From contig JAKANW010000154.1 of the NCBI GenBank assembly GCA_021823555.1, positions 1-6,893 of the forward strand: a stretch of 6,893 nucleotides of DNA, read 5' to 3'. The notes below the pieces were generated by a model, which worked only from the letters and a program-made list of their open reading frames with translations, ran no database searches and was not told where the DNA came from. Origin of the DNA: Chloroflexota bacterium (GTDB lineage: Bacteria; Chloroflexota; Anaerolineae; Anaerolineales; Villigracilaceae). Positions 867 through 6,893 of the stretch are shown piece after piece. A program made the position numbers and the translations under genes. How positions within the stretch are numbered: position 1 is the first letter of the stretch; each line of letters begins with the position of its first letter.

Positions 867-900
867 GCTTCATTTTGACTTCACTTTTGAAGTGTACAAT
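867..900 (+). promoter_or_regulatory. Pho-box-like promoter of the two-component operon
   Basis: Two 7-bp direct repeats, GCTTCAT (867-873) and ACTTCAC (878-884), are separated by 4 bp (period 11). Exactly 10 bp then follow before a -10-like TACAAT (895-900). The layout copies that known for PhoB/OmpR-family activators, where the box replaces the -35 element. A TTGACT at 875-880 is present but only 14 bp from the -10, too close for a normal sigma-70 -35. A small dyad (ACTTCA 878-883 / TGAAGT 888-893) overlaps the second repeat. The expected transcription start, 6-7 nt after the -10, falls at about 907, the A of the response-regulator ATG. The same arrangement precedes the secreted-protein gene at 2967-3000. 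Confidence 0.65.
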
Positions 901-906
901 GTCATC

Positions 907-1593
907 ATGCGAATCTTGCTCGTTGAAGATGAACTCAAAATTTCTACCTATGTCAAACGCGGATTGGAAGAAGCTGGCTACGCGGTGGATGCGGTGTACA
1001 CAGGCCGCGATGCGCTGGATTGGGCGGTTGCCACTGCCTACGATCTGATCATCCTCGACATCCTGATCCCCAAAGTGGATGGGCTTACCGTTTGCCGCGA
1101 ATTGCGCGCCGAGAAGAACCGTACCCCGATTCTCATGCTCACTGCCCGCGACACAGTGGACGACCGCGTCACCGGTCTGGATGCCGGCGCGGACGACTAT
1201 CTGGTCAAGCCGTTTGCGATGAAGGAATTGTTGGCGCGCGTCCGCGCACTGGCGCGCCGCGCAAACGAAGCGCCCAAATCGCCTGTGCTAACCCTGGCTG
1301 ATCTCACGCTTGATCCATCTGCACATCGGGTCACGCGCGGCGGCAAAGTGATTGACCTGCCCGCCAAAGAGTTTTCCATTCTGGAATACCTGCTTCGCAA
1401 TACAGGCCGCGTGCTCACGCGCACCATGATCGCTGAACATGTATGGAACTACGACTCCTATAACCAATCCAATGTGGTGGATGTCTACATCCGCAATCTG
1501 CGCCGTAAAGCGGACGATCCATTCGAGCCAAAACTCATCCATACCCTGCGCGGCATAGGCTACCGCCTTTCCATCGAGGAAGATGAAAATTAA
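907..1593 (+). CDS. OmpR/PhoB-family two-component response regulator
   Basis: This 228-residue protein has the usual length and domain order of the OmpR/PhoB family. The receiver domain (about 1-115) shows the acidic pair E7/D8 in MRILLVEDE, the phospho-acceptor D51 in LIILDILIPKVDG, T79 in MLTARD, Y98, and K101 in the LVKPF motif. The winged-helix DNA-binding domain (about 128-225) carries LPAKEFSILEYLLRNTGRVLTR split over its central helices, VVDVYIRNLRRKAD as recognition helix, and the HTLRGIGYRL wing. I chose ATG 907 over an in-frame GTG at 892 because receivers of this family begin with MRILLVEDE, and because 892 lies inside the promoter spacer. No Shine-Dalgarno precedes 907, which fits a leaderless mRNA. 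The protein presumably receives phosphate from the histidine kinase, whose start codon lies inside this gene (11-nt overlap). Its exact stimulus is unknown; it could belong to the MprA/CusR/PrrA-like group. Confidence 0.95.
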   Translation: MRILLVEDELKISTYVKRGLEEAGYAVDAVYTGRDALDWAVATAYDLIILDILIPKVDGLTVCRELRAEKNRTPILMLTARDTVDDRVTGLDAGADDYLVKPFAMKELLARVRALARRANEAPKSPVLTLADLTLDPSAHRVTRGGKVIDLPAKEFSILEYLLRNTGRVLTRTMIAEHVWNYDSYNQSNVVDVYIRNLRRKADDPFEPKLIHTLRGIGYRLSIEEDEN

Positions 1594-2962
1594 TTCCCTG
1601 CGCTTTCGCTTTGGATTATGGGTCGGTGGTTTCCTGCTGGCCTCCCTTTTGCTTTTTGGTGTCTATGTCTACGCCAGCATGTCGCGCAACCTCCATGCGG
1701 CAGTGGATGACGCCTTGCGTTTGAGCGCCACCCAGTCCATGGGAACGCTCAACGTGGACAATGGCCGCATCATTTTGGCCGATAACCTTCCCGAAAACAA
1801 CAGCGATATGGAGGCTCTGCGGGCGCGCGGATTCACCGTGCGCTTTCTCGATGCAAACGGCGTTTTGCTTGGCGGCTTTGGCGCAAATTGGAATACATCC
1901 TTAGCATCCATCCATCTTGGAAAACAAGCTTCCTTCTTTACAACAACCAACACCCAGGGAGAACCCGATTCCCGCGTCTACATTCTGCCCGTGATGAACG
2001 GCAACCAGATCGCGGGATATGTTCAGACCGCGCAAAGTCTTGAGAATACCCAACAAACATTGGAACGATTGCAACTCTCCCTTCTGCTGGGAATCCCGTT
2101 TTTGACCCTGCTCGCCGCGCTGGGTGGATATTTTCTGGCAGGACGCGCGCTCAAGCCTGTGGATGAAATCACCAATACCGCGCGCCGAATCTCTGCACAG
2201 GATCTATCTGCCCGCCTCAACCTGCCCGACAATGGCGACGAACTGGGACGGCTCGCCTCCACCTTTGACGATATGCTGGCGCGGCTCGACGATTCGTTTC
2301 GCCGCGAACGACAGTTCACCTCGGACGCCTCGCATGAACTTCGCACGCCGCTGGCCGCCATGCAGACCATCATCGGTGTGATGCGTTCGCAGAAACGGAC
2401 AACCACAGAATACGAGGAGGCCCTCGATGATTTGGGGGAGGAGACCAATCGCCTGCGTTCGTTGACAGAAGATTTGCTCAGGCTGGCGCGCGGTGAACAA
2501 CCCGTCCCATTGCAAAAAGAGCGCGTGGATTTGTCGGCTTTGCTGGAAGATGTCGCAGAATCGCTGACCCCGCTGGCAGAGGCGAAGGGACTCACTTTGG
2601 AATGCCGCGTCCAGCCGAATTTAACGGTCAGCAGTGATCGGGACGGTCTGATCCGGCTCTTTGTCAATTTAGTGGATAATGCCATCAAGTTCAGCGAGTC
2701 GGGCAAGGTTATGGTGTCCGCACAAATCGAGTCGAATATCATCCGAGTTAACGTGACCGATACAGGCAAAGGGATCGCGCCTGAACATCTCGATCACATC
2801 TTTGATCGTTTTTATCGCGCGGATGCTTCGCGCACGCAGGCGGGCACGGGATTGGGACTGGCAATTGCCCTGCAAATTGTGCGCGCACAGGGGGGAGATA
2901 TTACGGTGAAGAGTGAACTGGGAGTGGGGACAACCTTTTCAGTGACACTGCCGGCTCTGTAA
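1583..2962 (+). CDS. HAMP-domain sensor histidine kinase
   Basis: This 459-residue membrane kinase is paired with the preceding response regulator, overlapping it by 11 nt, so translation is probably coupled. Residues about 11-31 form the first membrane segment. About 32-163 is an extracytoplasmic sensor region without a domain I recognise, and about 164-187 is the second membrane segment. A HAMP linker follows (about 187-240; RALKPVDEITNTARRI, GDELGRLASTFDDML). The HisKA domain carries the phospho-acceptor H251 in SDASHELRTPLAAM. The ATPase domain has the N box with N366 (NLVDNAIKF), G1 with D393 (DTGKGIAP), the F box (IFDRFYRAD) and G2 (421-426, GTGLGL). All catalytic motifs are present. 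Architecture resembles ArlS/BaeS/CusS-type kinases that sense envelope stress or metals, but the ligand cannot be read from the sequence. The start is supported by the basic residues just before the first membrane helix; a GAGGA lies only 2 nt upstream of the ATG. Confidence 0.95.
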   Translation: MKINSLRFRFGLWVGGFLLASLLLFGVYVYASMSRNLHAAVDDALRLSATQSMGTLNVDNGRIILADNLPENNSDMEALRARGFTVRFLDANGVLLGGFGANWNTSLASIHLGKQASFFTTTNTQGEPDSRVYILPVMNGNQIAGYVQTAQSLENTQQTLERLQLSLLLGIPFLTLLAALGGYFLAGRALKPVDEITNTARRISAQDLSARLNLPDNGDELGRLASTFDDMLARLDDSFRRERQFTSDASHELRTPLAAMQTIIGVMRSQKRTTTEYEEALDDLGEETNRLRSLTEDLLRLARGEQPVPLQKERVDLSALLEDVAESLTPLAEAKGLTLECRVQPNLTVSSDRDGLIRLFVNLVDNAIKFSESGKVMVSAQIESNIIRVNVTDTGKGIAPEHLDHIFDRFYRADASRTQAGTGLGLAIALQIVRAQGGDITVKSELGVGTTFSVTLPAL

Positions 2963-2966
2963 TTTC

Positions 2967-3000
2967 ACTTCATGACGACTTCATCTCCGCCCGCTATGAT
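2967..3000 (+). promoter_or_regulatory. Pho-box-like promoter of the small secreted-protein gene
   Basis: Two identical repeats ACTTCAT (2967-2973 and 2978-2984) lie at an 11-bp period, start 4 nt after the kinase stop codon, and are followed after exactly 10 bp by a -10-like TATGAT (2995-3000). No -35 hexamer is evident, as expected for an activator-dependent promoter. The layout is the same as at 867-900, so the window's own response regulator is the obvious candidate activator. Predicted transcription start is about 3006-3007, giving a 5' UTR of about 42 nt. No terminator is seen between the kinase and this gene, so read-through from the operon could also transcribe it. Confidence 0.65.
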
Positions 3001-3048: not shown

Positions 3049-3426
3049 ATGAAACTCAACCGATTTTTTGCTCTCGCGGCAATTGCCCTGCTGGTTGTGG
3101 GCGCGATGGGCGCCATCAGCATGAAGGCTTTTGCCAAAAGCAGTGCGGCTCCTGTCACACAAACTTCCCTTCAGGCGCAGAGTTGCTCGCAGGATCAAGC
3201 CGATGGCACGGAAGTCCAATCTGCCACCGACACCGATAACGTGGATTTGCAATGCGGCGACCAGAACGCACCCGACACCGGTGTGGAAGCCGCAGGTACG
3301 GGCGGGCAGGAAACTGTCAGCGCTACGGATACCGACAATGTGAACGTTGAAGAACAAGTCGGTGACCAAAGCGGCGCGGATACCGGCGTGGAAGCGCCTG
3401 AAGCTGTTGCCCCTGCTGGCAAGTAG
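3049..3426 (+). CDS. Small secreted acidic protein with two internal repeats
   Basis: I do not recognise a named family. The protein has 125 residues. Residues 1-29 form a signal peptide: basic MKLNR, hydrophobic core 6-23, and a signal peptidase I-like AFA at 27-29. The mature part is acidic, low in complexity, and contains a duplication. SATDTDNV occurs at 58-65 and 91-98, GDQ at 70-72 and 105-107, and DTGVEA at 76-81 and 111-116. The DTDN clusters could bind cations, and C46/C69 are its only cysteines; both points are speculative. Most codons of the shared motifs differ synonymously (six of eight in SATDTDNV, including Ser TCT versus AGC), which argues that the protein is under selection and the gene is real. 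AAGGAG at 3036-3041 is an ideal Shine-Dalgarno 7 nt from the ATG. It follows the kinase by 86 nt, has its own box-bearing promoter, and ends before a strong terminator. It is probably an exported target, or an accessory/sensor partner, of the two-component system. Confidence 0.85.
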   Translation: MKLNRFFALAAIALLVVGAMGAISMKAFAKSSAAPVTQTSLQAQSCSQDQADGTEVQSATDTDNVDLQCGDQNAPDTGVEAAGTGGQETVSATDTDNVNVEEQVGDQSGADTGVEAPEAVAPAGK

Positions 3427-3443: not shown

Positions 3444-3470
3444 CGCCCCCGGACAACCGGGGGCGCTTTT
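3444..3470 (+). terminator. Rho-independent terminator
   Basis: A perfect 9-bp GC-rich stem, CGCCCCCGG (3444-3452) with CCGGGGGCG (3457-3465), closes a 4-nt loop (ACAA) and is followed by CTTTT. It begins 17 nt after the stop of the secreted-protein gene and should end transcripts of the signalling cassette. Confidence 0.9.
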
Positions 3471-3567
3471 CGTTATCGTGGGAATGATCCTCAACGTGGC
3501 AATTACCCCTCGAAGGCTGTCCACTCGAAAGGTGGTGGAGGCGCTGGGGATGTTCCATTTCATTTGA

Positions 3568-3650
3568 AACCGTCCCGCAGGCGTTGCCCTGAGCCTGCCG
3601 AAGGGTTTGAAAGGACGGTCAAATTCGCCCAATCGAACCTGCGGGACGTT
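3568..3650. repeat. Composite inverted repeat with dispersed-repeat core (intergenic)
   Basis: The outer arms CGTCCCGCAGG (3571-3581) and CCTGCGGGACG (3638-3648) are perfect 11-bp complements. Between them sits a GC-rich core, TGCCCTGAGCCTGCCGAAGG (3585-3604), of a kind I know as a dispersed repeat in many bacterial genomes. A further segment, GGACGGTCAAA (3613-3623), can pair with 3563-3575 with a two-base bulge, so the left arm has two alternative partners. It lies in the 469-bp gap between the secreted-protein gene and hemA. It is most simply a non-autonomous repeat or MITE-like element. The left arm is not followed by a T-run, so this is not a classical terminator. Confidence 0.6.
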
Positions 3651-3692: not shown

Positions 3693-3725
3693 GAATAATG
3701 TCATGAGATAACCATGACATTATTC
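3693..3725. promoter_or_regulatory. Perfect 13-bp dyad, possible operator
   Basis: GAATAATGTCATG (3693-3705) and CATGACATTATTC (3713-3725) are exact reverse complements around a 7-nt spacer. The element is AT-rich, lies about 170 bp upstream of the hemA start, and is not followed by a T-tract, so I favour a protein-binding dyad over a terminator, though an RNA hairpin is possible. I cannot name the binding protein. Confidence 0.45.
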
Positions 3726-6177: not shown

Positions 6178-6893
6178 TGAAAATACTGATCACCCGTCCG
6201 CGCGCCCAAGCCGATGACTTCGCTGAAAGATTGCGTTCCGCAGGCTTCGAGCCAATCTTTTTCCCTGTGATTGAAATTCGTCCGATTGAAAATAATGCGG
6301 CGCTCGATCAAGCGCTGGAGAAATTGGATCGCTACGCGTGGGTGGTGTTCACCTCGGTCAATGCGGTGGAGGTGGTATTTTCCCTCACCCCTCGCCCCTC
6401 TCCCAAAATTGGGAGAGGGGTTGGGGTGAGGGTTGCCGCGATTGGGCCGAAGACCGCCGAAACGTTGCAGGCGCGCGGCGTGACTCCTGATTTCGTCCCT
6501 GAAGAATATGTGGCTGAGTCTATTTTGCCTGGGCTGGGTGATTTACGTGGAAAATGGGTCCTGCTTCCCCGCGCAGAAATCGCCCACAAGGAATTACCCG
6601 AAGCAATCGCCAAAGCGGGCGGAATCGCGCATGAGATCGTGGCATATCAAACTCTCCCTGCAAAAGTTGACATGGATGGACTCGACGCTTTGAAATCTGG
6701 CGTGGATGTTGTCACTTTTACCAGTGCTTCCACAGTTGAAAATTTTGTCGCTGTTCTGCGCCAAAATGGACTCGACCCGTTGAACCTGCCGAACAATCCG
6801 CTGTTCGCTTGCATTGGTCCCATCACGGAGCAAGCCGCGCGGGAAGAAGGGTTATCCAATCTTGTTGTTGCTAAAGAATATACGACTGATGGA
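6177..6893 (+). CDS. hemD: Uroporphyrinogen-III synthase (3' end outside window)
   Basis: HemD cyclises hydroxymethylbilane with inversion of ring D to give uroporphyrinogen III, the branch point of haem, sirohaem and cobalamin. The frame is open from ATG 6177 to the window end, 239 codons; the family is usually about 250 residues, so little is missing. Recognisable parts are MKILITRPRAQADDFAERL, WVVFTSVNAVEVVF (55-68), AAIGPKTAETLQARG (87-101), PDFVPEEYVAESI, GKWVLLPRAE, VVTFTSASTVENF and the ACIGPITEQAAREEG segment near the end, giving the two-lobed fold of the family. Residues 69-86 (SLTPRPSPKIGRGVGVRV) are encoded by a palindromic repeat and occupy the place where relatives usually have a helix and linker between FTSVNAVE and AAIGPKT. 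No Shine-Dalgarno is visible; the start lies 19 nt after hemC in repeat DNA, so coupling to hemC translation is likely. Confidence 0.93.
   Translation, partial: MKILITRPRAQADDFAERLRSAGFEPIFFPVIEIRPIENNAALDQALEKLDRYAWVVFTSVNAVEVVFSLTPRPSPKIGRGVGVRVAAIGPKTAETLQARGVTPDFVPEEYVAESILPGLGDLRGKWVLLPRAEIAHKELPEAIAKAGGIAHEIVAYQTLPAKVDMDGLDALKSGVDVVTFTSASTVENFVAVLRQNGLDPLNLPNNPLFACIGPITEQAAREEGLSNLVVAKEYTTDG
6382..6432. repeat. 51-bp palindromic element in frame within hemD
   Basis: Arms CCCTCACCCC (6382-6391) and CCCCTCTCCC (6395-6404) pair with GGGAGAGGGG (6411-6420) and GGGGTGAGGG (6423-6432); only TCG versus TT in the middle of each arm is unpaired. The apex is AAAATT (6405-6410). The element is 51 bp, exactly 17 codons, and keeps the hemD frame. 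The sequence type (CCCTCACCCC...CTCTCCC palindromes) is known as a dispersed repeat in many bacterial genomes. Confidence 0.85.

Follow-up and report, generated by a model that had tools for sequence, protein, structure and literature searches.

We analysed a 6,893-nucleotide stretch of a Chloroflexota bacterium (contig JAKANW010000154.1 of assembly GCA_021823555.1), hereafter the window, in which two promoters share one layout: a tandem repeat box set at a fixed distance from a -10 hexamer. The first precedes the gene of an OmpR/PhoB-family response regulator (907-1593, + strand, 228 aa) and the sensor histidine kinase gene that overlaps its stop codon (1583-2962, +); the second precedes the gene of a small exported acidic protein (3049-3426, +, 125 aa). 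Judged from the sequence, the response regulator very probably switches on both its own two-component operon, of the OmpR/PhoB type, and the secreted-protein gene; uncultured relatives within the Chloroflexota conserve the boxes. Regulators of this type, repeats of this architecture and two-component modules associated with PepSY proteins were already known; the specific circuit and its DNA signature seem new. In the literature on Anaerolineae and Chloroflexi regulators and regulons, judged by title and the start of the abstract, no match to this operator and its targets was found among the matches listed. A look-alike pair of promoters becomes a testable regulon in Chloroflexota, with a named regulator, operator and targets.

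Two matching promoters in the window

The box of the two-component operon (867-884, +) consists of the half-sites GCTTCAT (867-873) and ACTTCAC (878-884), which are separated by tttg and repeat with a period of 11 bp; ten bases (ttttgaagtg) lead from it to the -10 hexamer TACAAT (895-900, +). The box of the secreted-protein gene (2967-2984, +) is made of ACTTCAT (2967-2973), gacg and ACTTCAT (2978-2984), followed after ten bases (ctccgcccgc) by the hexamer TATGAT (2995-3000, +). A first-pass annotation, made by a model, had picked out these two 34-bp layouts (7-bp repeat, N4, 7-bp repeat, N10, -10 hexamer) at 867-900 and 2967-3000, and both were confirmed. Its remark that there is no third copy also held: on both strands of the window, the pattern RCTTCAY-N4-RCTTCAY-N10-TANNAT matches only those two places, and a looser form with YTTCAY and TANNNT finds the same two and none in shuffles. 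For a chance resemblance of two promoter stretches we found no support, although the sites do differ at several positions; the strict pattern had no match in 1000 dinucleotide shuffles of the window and the layout is conserved in relatives, and we consider the probability of this explanation negligible.

Both promoters had been described as lacking a correctly spaced -35 element. For the regulator this is accurate, the best match to TTGACA being at most three of six bases at spacers of 16-18 bp. For the secreted-protein gene it is only roughly so: a weak -35-like sequence, ATGACG, matches at four of six bases with a 17-bp spacer and scores 9/12 in a sigma-70 scan, a level at which shuffles of the region average 2.2 sites, i.e. 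that of chance.

Conservation upstream of both genes

The first-pass annotation had proposed that the regulator activates its own operon and the secreted-protein gene, and had suggested looking for the repeats upstream of orthologues. In relatives, the repeats turned out to be conserved before 19 of 24 regulator genes and 14 of 16 secreted-protein genes, which supports the proposal at the level of promoter layout, with binding and activation as what that layout would imply.

Regulator-kinase loci of relatives were collected through kinase searches (matches at 1e-60 in 78 of 400 and 161 of 396 genomes, with up to 30 best loci taken per search). Of 72 sources (the window, L099-L113 and L159-L214), 69 gave a response regulator, L104, L170 and L202 being dropped, and these amounted to 57 distinct proteins. 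Twenty-four distinct regulators, including that of the window and one from the later hold-out described below (L235), share the recognition helix motif IRNLR. The 19 counted above carry the exact layout TTCAY-N6-TTCAY-N10-TANNNT within 200 bp 5' of the gene. When the 24 promoters were scanned over periods of 6-20 and gaps of 4-20, no period other than 11 occurred, with 19 matches at gap 10 and at most four at any other gap; 300 shuffled sets gave none and the reverse strand one. Within 250 bp of 62 regulators from other phyla, no TTCAY-N6-TTCAY was found (62 of 79 loci, L002-L080, gave an adjacent regulator; many of these are closely related among themselves and have IKRLR helices).

In the window, the regulator ATG (907) begins 6 nt past the end of the -10 hexamer (window 895-909). 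This short distance predicts a leaderless, or almost leaderless, operon mRNA, with transcription starting at or beside the ATG. The distance is likewise 6-7 nt in L101, L111 and L163, and 14-115 nt in the remaining 15 of the 19 box-bearing regulator promoters.

Secreted-protein genes were recognised by homology. In the 25 mapped loci, tblastn matches to the window protein gave 15 such genes with upstream sequence; the 16th is L104, a separate match whose contig shows no regulator. The box is exact before 13 of the 14 positive genes and has one mismatch in L301. The secreted-protein gene of L296 was left out since the contig end cuts its upstream region, and six more (L104, L113, L302, L303, L305 and L307) were left out of the count because they had been spotted through their box. 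In L302 and L307 the regulator promoter has no box, yet one precedes the secreted PepSY gene.

At L100 (4443-4526, G452), kinase homology ends at residue 407 and the secreted-gene box is a half only; this locus appears to be decayed or misassembled.

Proposed circuit

From these promoters we infer a circuit as follows. A signal would act on the kinase, which would phosphorylate the regulator; once phosphorylated, the regulator would occupy every nYTTCAY repeat pair as a tandem, head-to-tail dimer. Because the box occupies the place of the -35 element, 10 bp 5' of the -10, the bound dimer would recruit RNA polymerase to a promoter that has no proper -35 (class II activation, PhoB-like). Its targets would be its own regulator-kinase operon, giving positive autoregulation, and the secreted-protein gene, transcribed from a separate promoter and probably ending at a terminator-like hairpin (3444-3475, +). 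The kinase has a predicted PAS/Cache-like outer domain and is probably a sensor of envelope conditions. The envelope is also the probable place of action of the secreted protein, which may give feedback to the kinase as DbfQ gives to DbfS. Together, the genes behind boxes and the modelled outer domain suggest an envelope response.

In PhoB-dependent promoters the box replaces the -35 element and lies 10 bp 5' of the -10. The promoters of relatives have the same class II traits: the box sits in the -35 place, the gap of 10 recurs in each of the 19 box-bearing regulator promoters, and no consistent -35 accompanies it (best match in each, one to three of six bases at 16-18 bp). This bears on a different possibility, that the regulator binds the boxes but represses, or merely tunes basal transcription. 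A regulator covering a promoter could indeed block polymerase, and the ATGACG at 17 bp survives in the second site of the window. A repressor, however, needs no fixed gap to the -10, and a fixed 10-bp gap without a good -35 is typical of activator-dependent promoters of the PhoB type; we consider repression or tuning very unlikely.

Recognition helix and half-site

The neighbours of the window regulator provide a comparison of DNA reading. In a tree of response regulators (131 rows), it belongs to a clade of 25 (support 100/99), 20 with a box and five without. A neighbouring clade of 19 regulators (support 100/100; sister relation to the window clade, 92/81) has an IRRLR helix. The recognition helices of the two clades have a single fixed difference, Asn to Arg, at the site of PhoB Arg201. 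In the window this is Asn197 (Arg196-Asn197 codons, 1492-1497, +, within the helix SNVVDVYIRNLRRK), which we take to be the counterpart of PhoB Arg201 and PmrA Asn196 from the shared helix pattern and PhoB numbering. With half-site positions 1-3 left free, nnnTCAY repeats in the 7-4-7-10 geometry occur in 18 of the 19 promoters of the Arg clade. All 38 half-sites of the Asn clade have T at position 3, whereas the 36 of the Arg clade divide into 21 with G, 11 with T and 4 with A.

The half-site difference between the two neighbouring clades stands. Two clades, one fixed helix substitution and one shifted base make a natural comparison for how response regulators read DNA. PMC3973317 describes PhoB Arg201 as hydrogen-bonding a guanine, with PmrA Asn196 as its counterpart. 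A bolder claim would be that, the rest of the helix being nearly identical, the choice of Asn or Arg at this position determines the third base (T versus mostly G). The two neighbouring clades, of which one is coupled to an exported feedback protein of PepSY type, would then have diverged by a single specificity switch and kept the rigid 7-4-7-10 geometry. We regard this as tentative and rather doubtful: the tree labels class six of the 19 Arg-clade promoters with the box type of the window, which counts against a clean switch, and residues outside the helix differ too, so that the one helix residue may not be causal. If true, the family, with its nTCTTAG/C and nTTTAAT half-sites, would be a natural series for DNA reading by OmpR/PhoB regulators.

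A more distant group of regulators, with DVY-IGYLR helices, has nTCTTAG/C repeats in the same geometry in 12 of 22 distinct members, and also before secreted-protein genes. A code linking helix pairs (RN, RY, GY and RR) to half-sites was fixed from a first set before 80 further places were fetched; the first set, at 11 or 12 of 12 points, gave 20/23 for RN, 12/22 for DVY-GY, 4/6 for RY and 3/3 for RR. The 80 places, a subset of those listed rows that had no locus, yielded a hold-out of 77 regulators (L225, L271 and L291 were dropped, and L216 repeats an earlier protein). Predicted half-sites were found in 7/16 for RR, 2/29 for RY (7 DVY, 22 EVY), 0/16 for GY (11 DVY, 5 EIY) and 0/1 for RN. Most of the hold-out having failed, a general helix-to-half-site code is mostly unsupported, which we count with the adverse points gathered below. 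The hold-out clade with the RR pair has TCAT repeats at the exact 7-4-7-10 spacing in 15/16.

Two-component/secreted pairs at the distant loci L103, L107-L110 and L112 use nTCTTAG/C-like repeats in 7-4-7-10 geometry, and the secreted-gene promoters of L109 and L110 seem, by eye, to have three repeats. Upstream of regulators with the helix EIY(I/V)GYLR, tandem repeats resembling TTCACAG are exact in L281 and L288, variant in L285 and L287 and absent in L286; they come close to TCACAGC, the motif of Mycobacterium tuberculosis PhoP.

Spacing and extent of the regulon

Eight genomes were searched with gaps of 5-15 allowed: of 25 matches at system loci, 22 had a gap of 10, as did 14 of 32 elsewhere, some matches overlapping. 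The strict pattern had 71 matches in 20 of 21 clade genomes (none in G790) and its reversed form none; G314, which also holds a regulator of this clade, lies outside the 21-genome count. By hand count, 50 of the 71 are within about 16 kb of a regulator-kinase pair of the clade.

Around these loci the boxes mark more than two genes. The self-contained module of the first-pass annotation is too narrow a description for the relatives, in which boxes also precede nearby genes for lipoprotein, DedA-PAP2, PAP2, glycosyltransferase and ABC proteins. Genes downstream of boxes encode a DedA(VTT)-PAP2 fusion in L099 (by eye, the start is similar in L144), a PAP2 protein in L102, and, in L099, a glycosyltransferase-like protein (GT2-like, by eye) and an ABC ATPase. 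Lipoprotein-like proteins with no confident Pfam match follow boxes in L099, L102, L295, L297 and L298, and others judged lipoprotein-like by eye in L296, L299, L300 and L304.

L099 (5177-13896, G556) has seven boxes in about 9 kb, before the regulator-kinase pair, two secreted-protein genes and the DedA-PAP2, glycosyltransferase-like, ABC ATPase and lipoprotein genes; an eighth lies on the same contig (G556:C35:73449).

Several observations weigh against the circuit or limit its reach. Among the 24 IRNLR regulators, five promoters do not have the exact layout, L167 by one base and L189, L196, L197 and L235 clearly, and the pairs L162/L165, L164/L166 and L191/L193 are near-identical; therefore, not all promoters are independent. 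The secreted-protein genes of L100 and L105 keep the downstream half-site only, with a 10-bp gap to a -10-like hexamer. A Pfam search of the window's secreted protein found no PepSY or other domain, which makes feedback on the kinase speculative here. Between activation and repression, the sequence discriminates by position only. Finally, the pattern had 36 matches in 21 of 39 genomes in which no kinase matched at 1e-60, as judged on four scored candidates per genome, and the reversed pattern three. This rate is close to that of off-locus matches in clade genomes and amounts to roughly one match per genome lacking a close kinase match, so that the pattern by itself does not pinpoint this regulator's sites.

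As a search pattern, then, RCTTCAY-N4-RCTTCAY-N10-TANNAT does mark the regulator and secreted-protein genes of relatives but is not specific to them. A genome-wide regulon drawn from the pattern was rejected on the same frequencies, and only a local regulon is defensible, no distant targets being claimed. The off-locus background probably reflects other regulators of the same architecture.

The same evidence bears on the rival explanation that the boxes are genuine operators bound by a paralogous OmpR-family regulator of the same genome, or shared among several. The neighbouring clade's box has the TCAT core too, some of its half-sites are nTTTCAT, part of its promoters were scored as the window type, and a close relative, G092, carries both paralogues (L101 and L218); the matches in genomes without a close kinase point the same way. 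Against this, most matches cluster near the clade's own regulator-kinase pair, position 3 is invariably T in one clade and mostly G in the other, and the box stands directly 5' of this regulator in the large majority of its promoters. We therefore think this rival unlikely, and retain the adjacent regulator as the predicted one.

L146, L147, L157, L158 and several matches in the genomes without a close kinase match read, by eye, CTTCAYnAAnnCTTCACA in the same geometry. Small proteins, exported or His/Met-rich and membrane-bound, are encoded behind these boxes, and one has a cupredoxin-like end; this suggests another, perhaps metal-related, regulator in Anaerolineae.

Comparison with known systems

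OmpR/PhoB regulators bind direct repeats, and M. tuberculosis PhoP binds 7-N4-7 repeats with strict spacing (PMC4832192). Like the window system, Escherichia coli PhoB with its Pho box and Streptomyces coelicolor PhoP (GTTCACC-N4-GTTCACC) combine a regulator of this family with 7-N4-7 direct repeats (PMC4832192, PMC4415409). The description of the window sites as Pho-box-like is therefore apt for geometry, but not for the half-site or the neighbouring genes: the half-site is nYTTCAY, not CTGTCAT, and the regulator has Asn197 where PhoB has Arg201. Membership of the Pho regulon was rejected, given these half-sites with their constant T at position 3 and box genes that are envelope or secreted genes, not of phosphate type; no pst or phoA-type genes were found behind boxes among the mapped-locus genes examined. 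The M. tuberculosis PhoP-DNA complex is a tandem dimer on 7-N4-7 repeats (PMC4832192), as is predicted for the window regulator, although its half-site is TCACAGC and its helix residues differ.

PmrA/BasR, whose half-sites are CTTAAT, likewise has Asn at the PhoB Arg201 position, a half-site starting with CTT and an 11-bp period (PMC3973317); its DNA-binding domain, however, is only distantly similar, and the six-base half-site has A at its fourth base in PmrA and C here. The parallel is no more than suggestive, since Asn196 touches no base in the docking model of PmrA (PMC3973317). Excerpts of PMC3968170 (HssR/HitR) and PMC10294691 (PhoB regulon) held nothing decisive for this system.

For the exported partner, DbfQRS of Vibrio cholerae is the best functional parallel. 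There, and in BqsS with PA2658/PA2659 of Pseudomonas aeruginosa, a small exported protein stands beside a two-component system, the operon is autoregulated and PepSY is present (PMC12714742); the window system shares the exported neighbour, some relatives of its protein carry PepSY, and the conserved box before its own operon would predict autoregulation here as well. The window differs in that its protein has no detectable PepSY and has its own regulator box and terminator-like hairpin, and in that the box in relatives marks lipoprotein and DedA/PAP2 genes as well. The marks of DbfQRS-type modules include a small PepSY-domain protein encoded no more than four genes from the kinase or regulator, and binding of the exported protein to the kinase's sensor domain; in the window protein no Pfam domain was found. 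Among relatives, PepSY was found in 10 of 12 secreted proteins downstream of boxes (8 of 10, plus L303 and L307), not in L101 or L111; among the matches listed, it occurs in six of the 120 nearest homologues of the window protein and not in the other 114. This recurrent exported, sometimes PepSY-bearing partner agrees with a recently proposed role for small periplasmic proteins in the tuning of sensor kinases.

The outer domain of the window kinase is predicted to have a PAS/Cache-like fold similar to that of WalK/PhoQ-type kinases. An AlphaFold2 model of residues 1-240 is of moderate confidence (pLDDT 74) and gives WalK/PhoQ-like sensor matches, with 9-17% identity in their rows; no ligand can be named.

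Other features of the window

The genes, all on the + strand, are in order the end of a BTAD-type regulator, the response regulator, the kinase, the exported acidic protein, hemA, hemC and hemD. In the response regulator both PF00072 (Response_reg, receiver) and PF00486 (Trans_reg_C, winged helix) exceed the Pfam cut-off; its nearest solved sequences are DrrD (1kgs) and, second, M. tuberculosis PhoP. The kinase is ordered as TM1, outer domain, TM2, HAMP, HisKA and HATPase_c. The secreted protein has, by eye, a hydrophobic N-terminus, and past residue 30 it has 18 acidic residues and one basic residue. The few named homologues of this protein are from Chloroflexota, Anaerolineales.

The hairpin behind the secreted-protein gene, found in a consensus scan, has nine G-C pairs followed by CTTTTCGTTA; it is the strongest stem by G-C pairs among eight terminator-like hairpins in the region, as compared with 3.8 in shuffles. 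About 170 bp 5' of hemA, at 3693-3725, a perfect 13-bp inverted repeat (GAATAATGTCATG / CATGACATTATTC, 7 nt apart) may be an operator or a hairpin. Two further repeats resemble dispersed repeats: an 11-bp inverted pair (3571 and 3638; 3571-3648) between the secreted-protein gene and hemA, and a perfect 12-bp inverted repeat (6395-6420) within the hemD reading frame.

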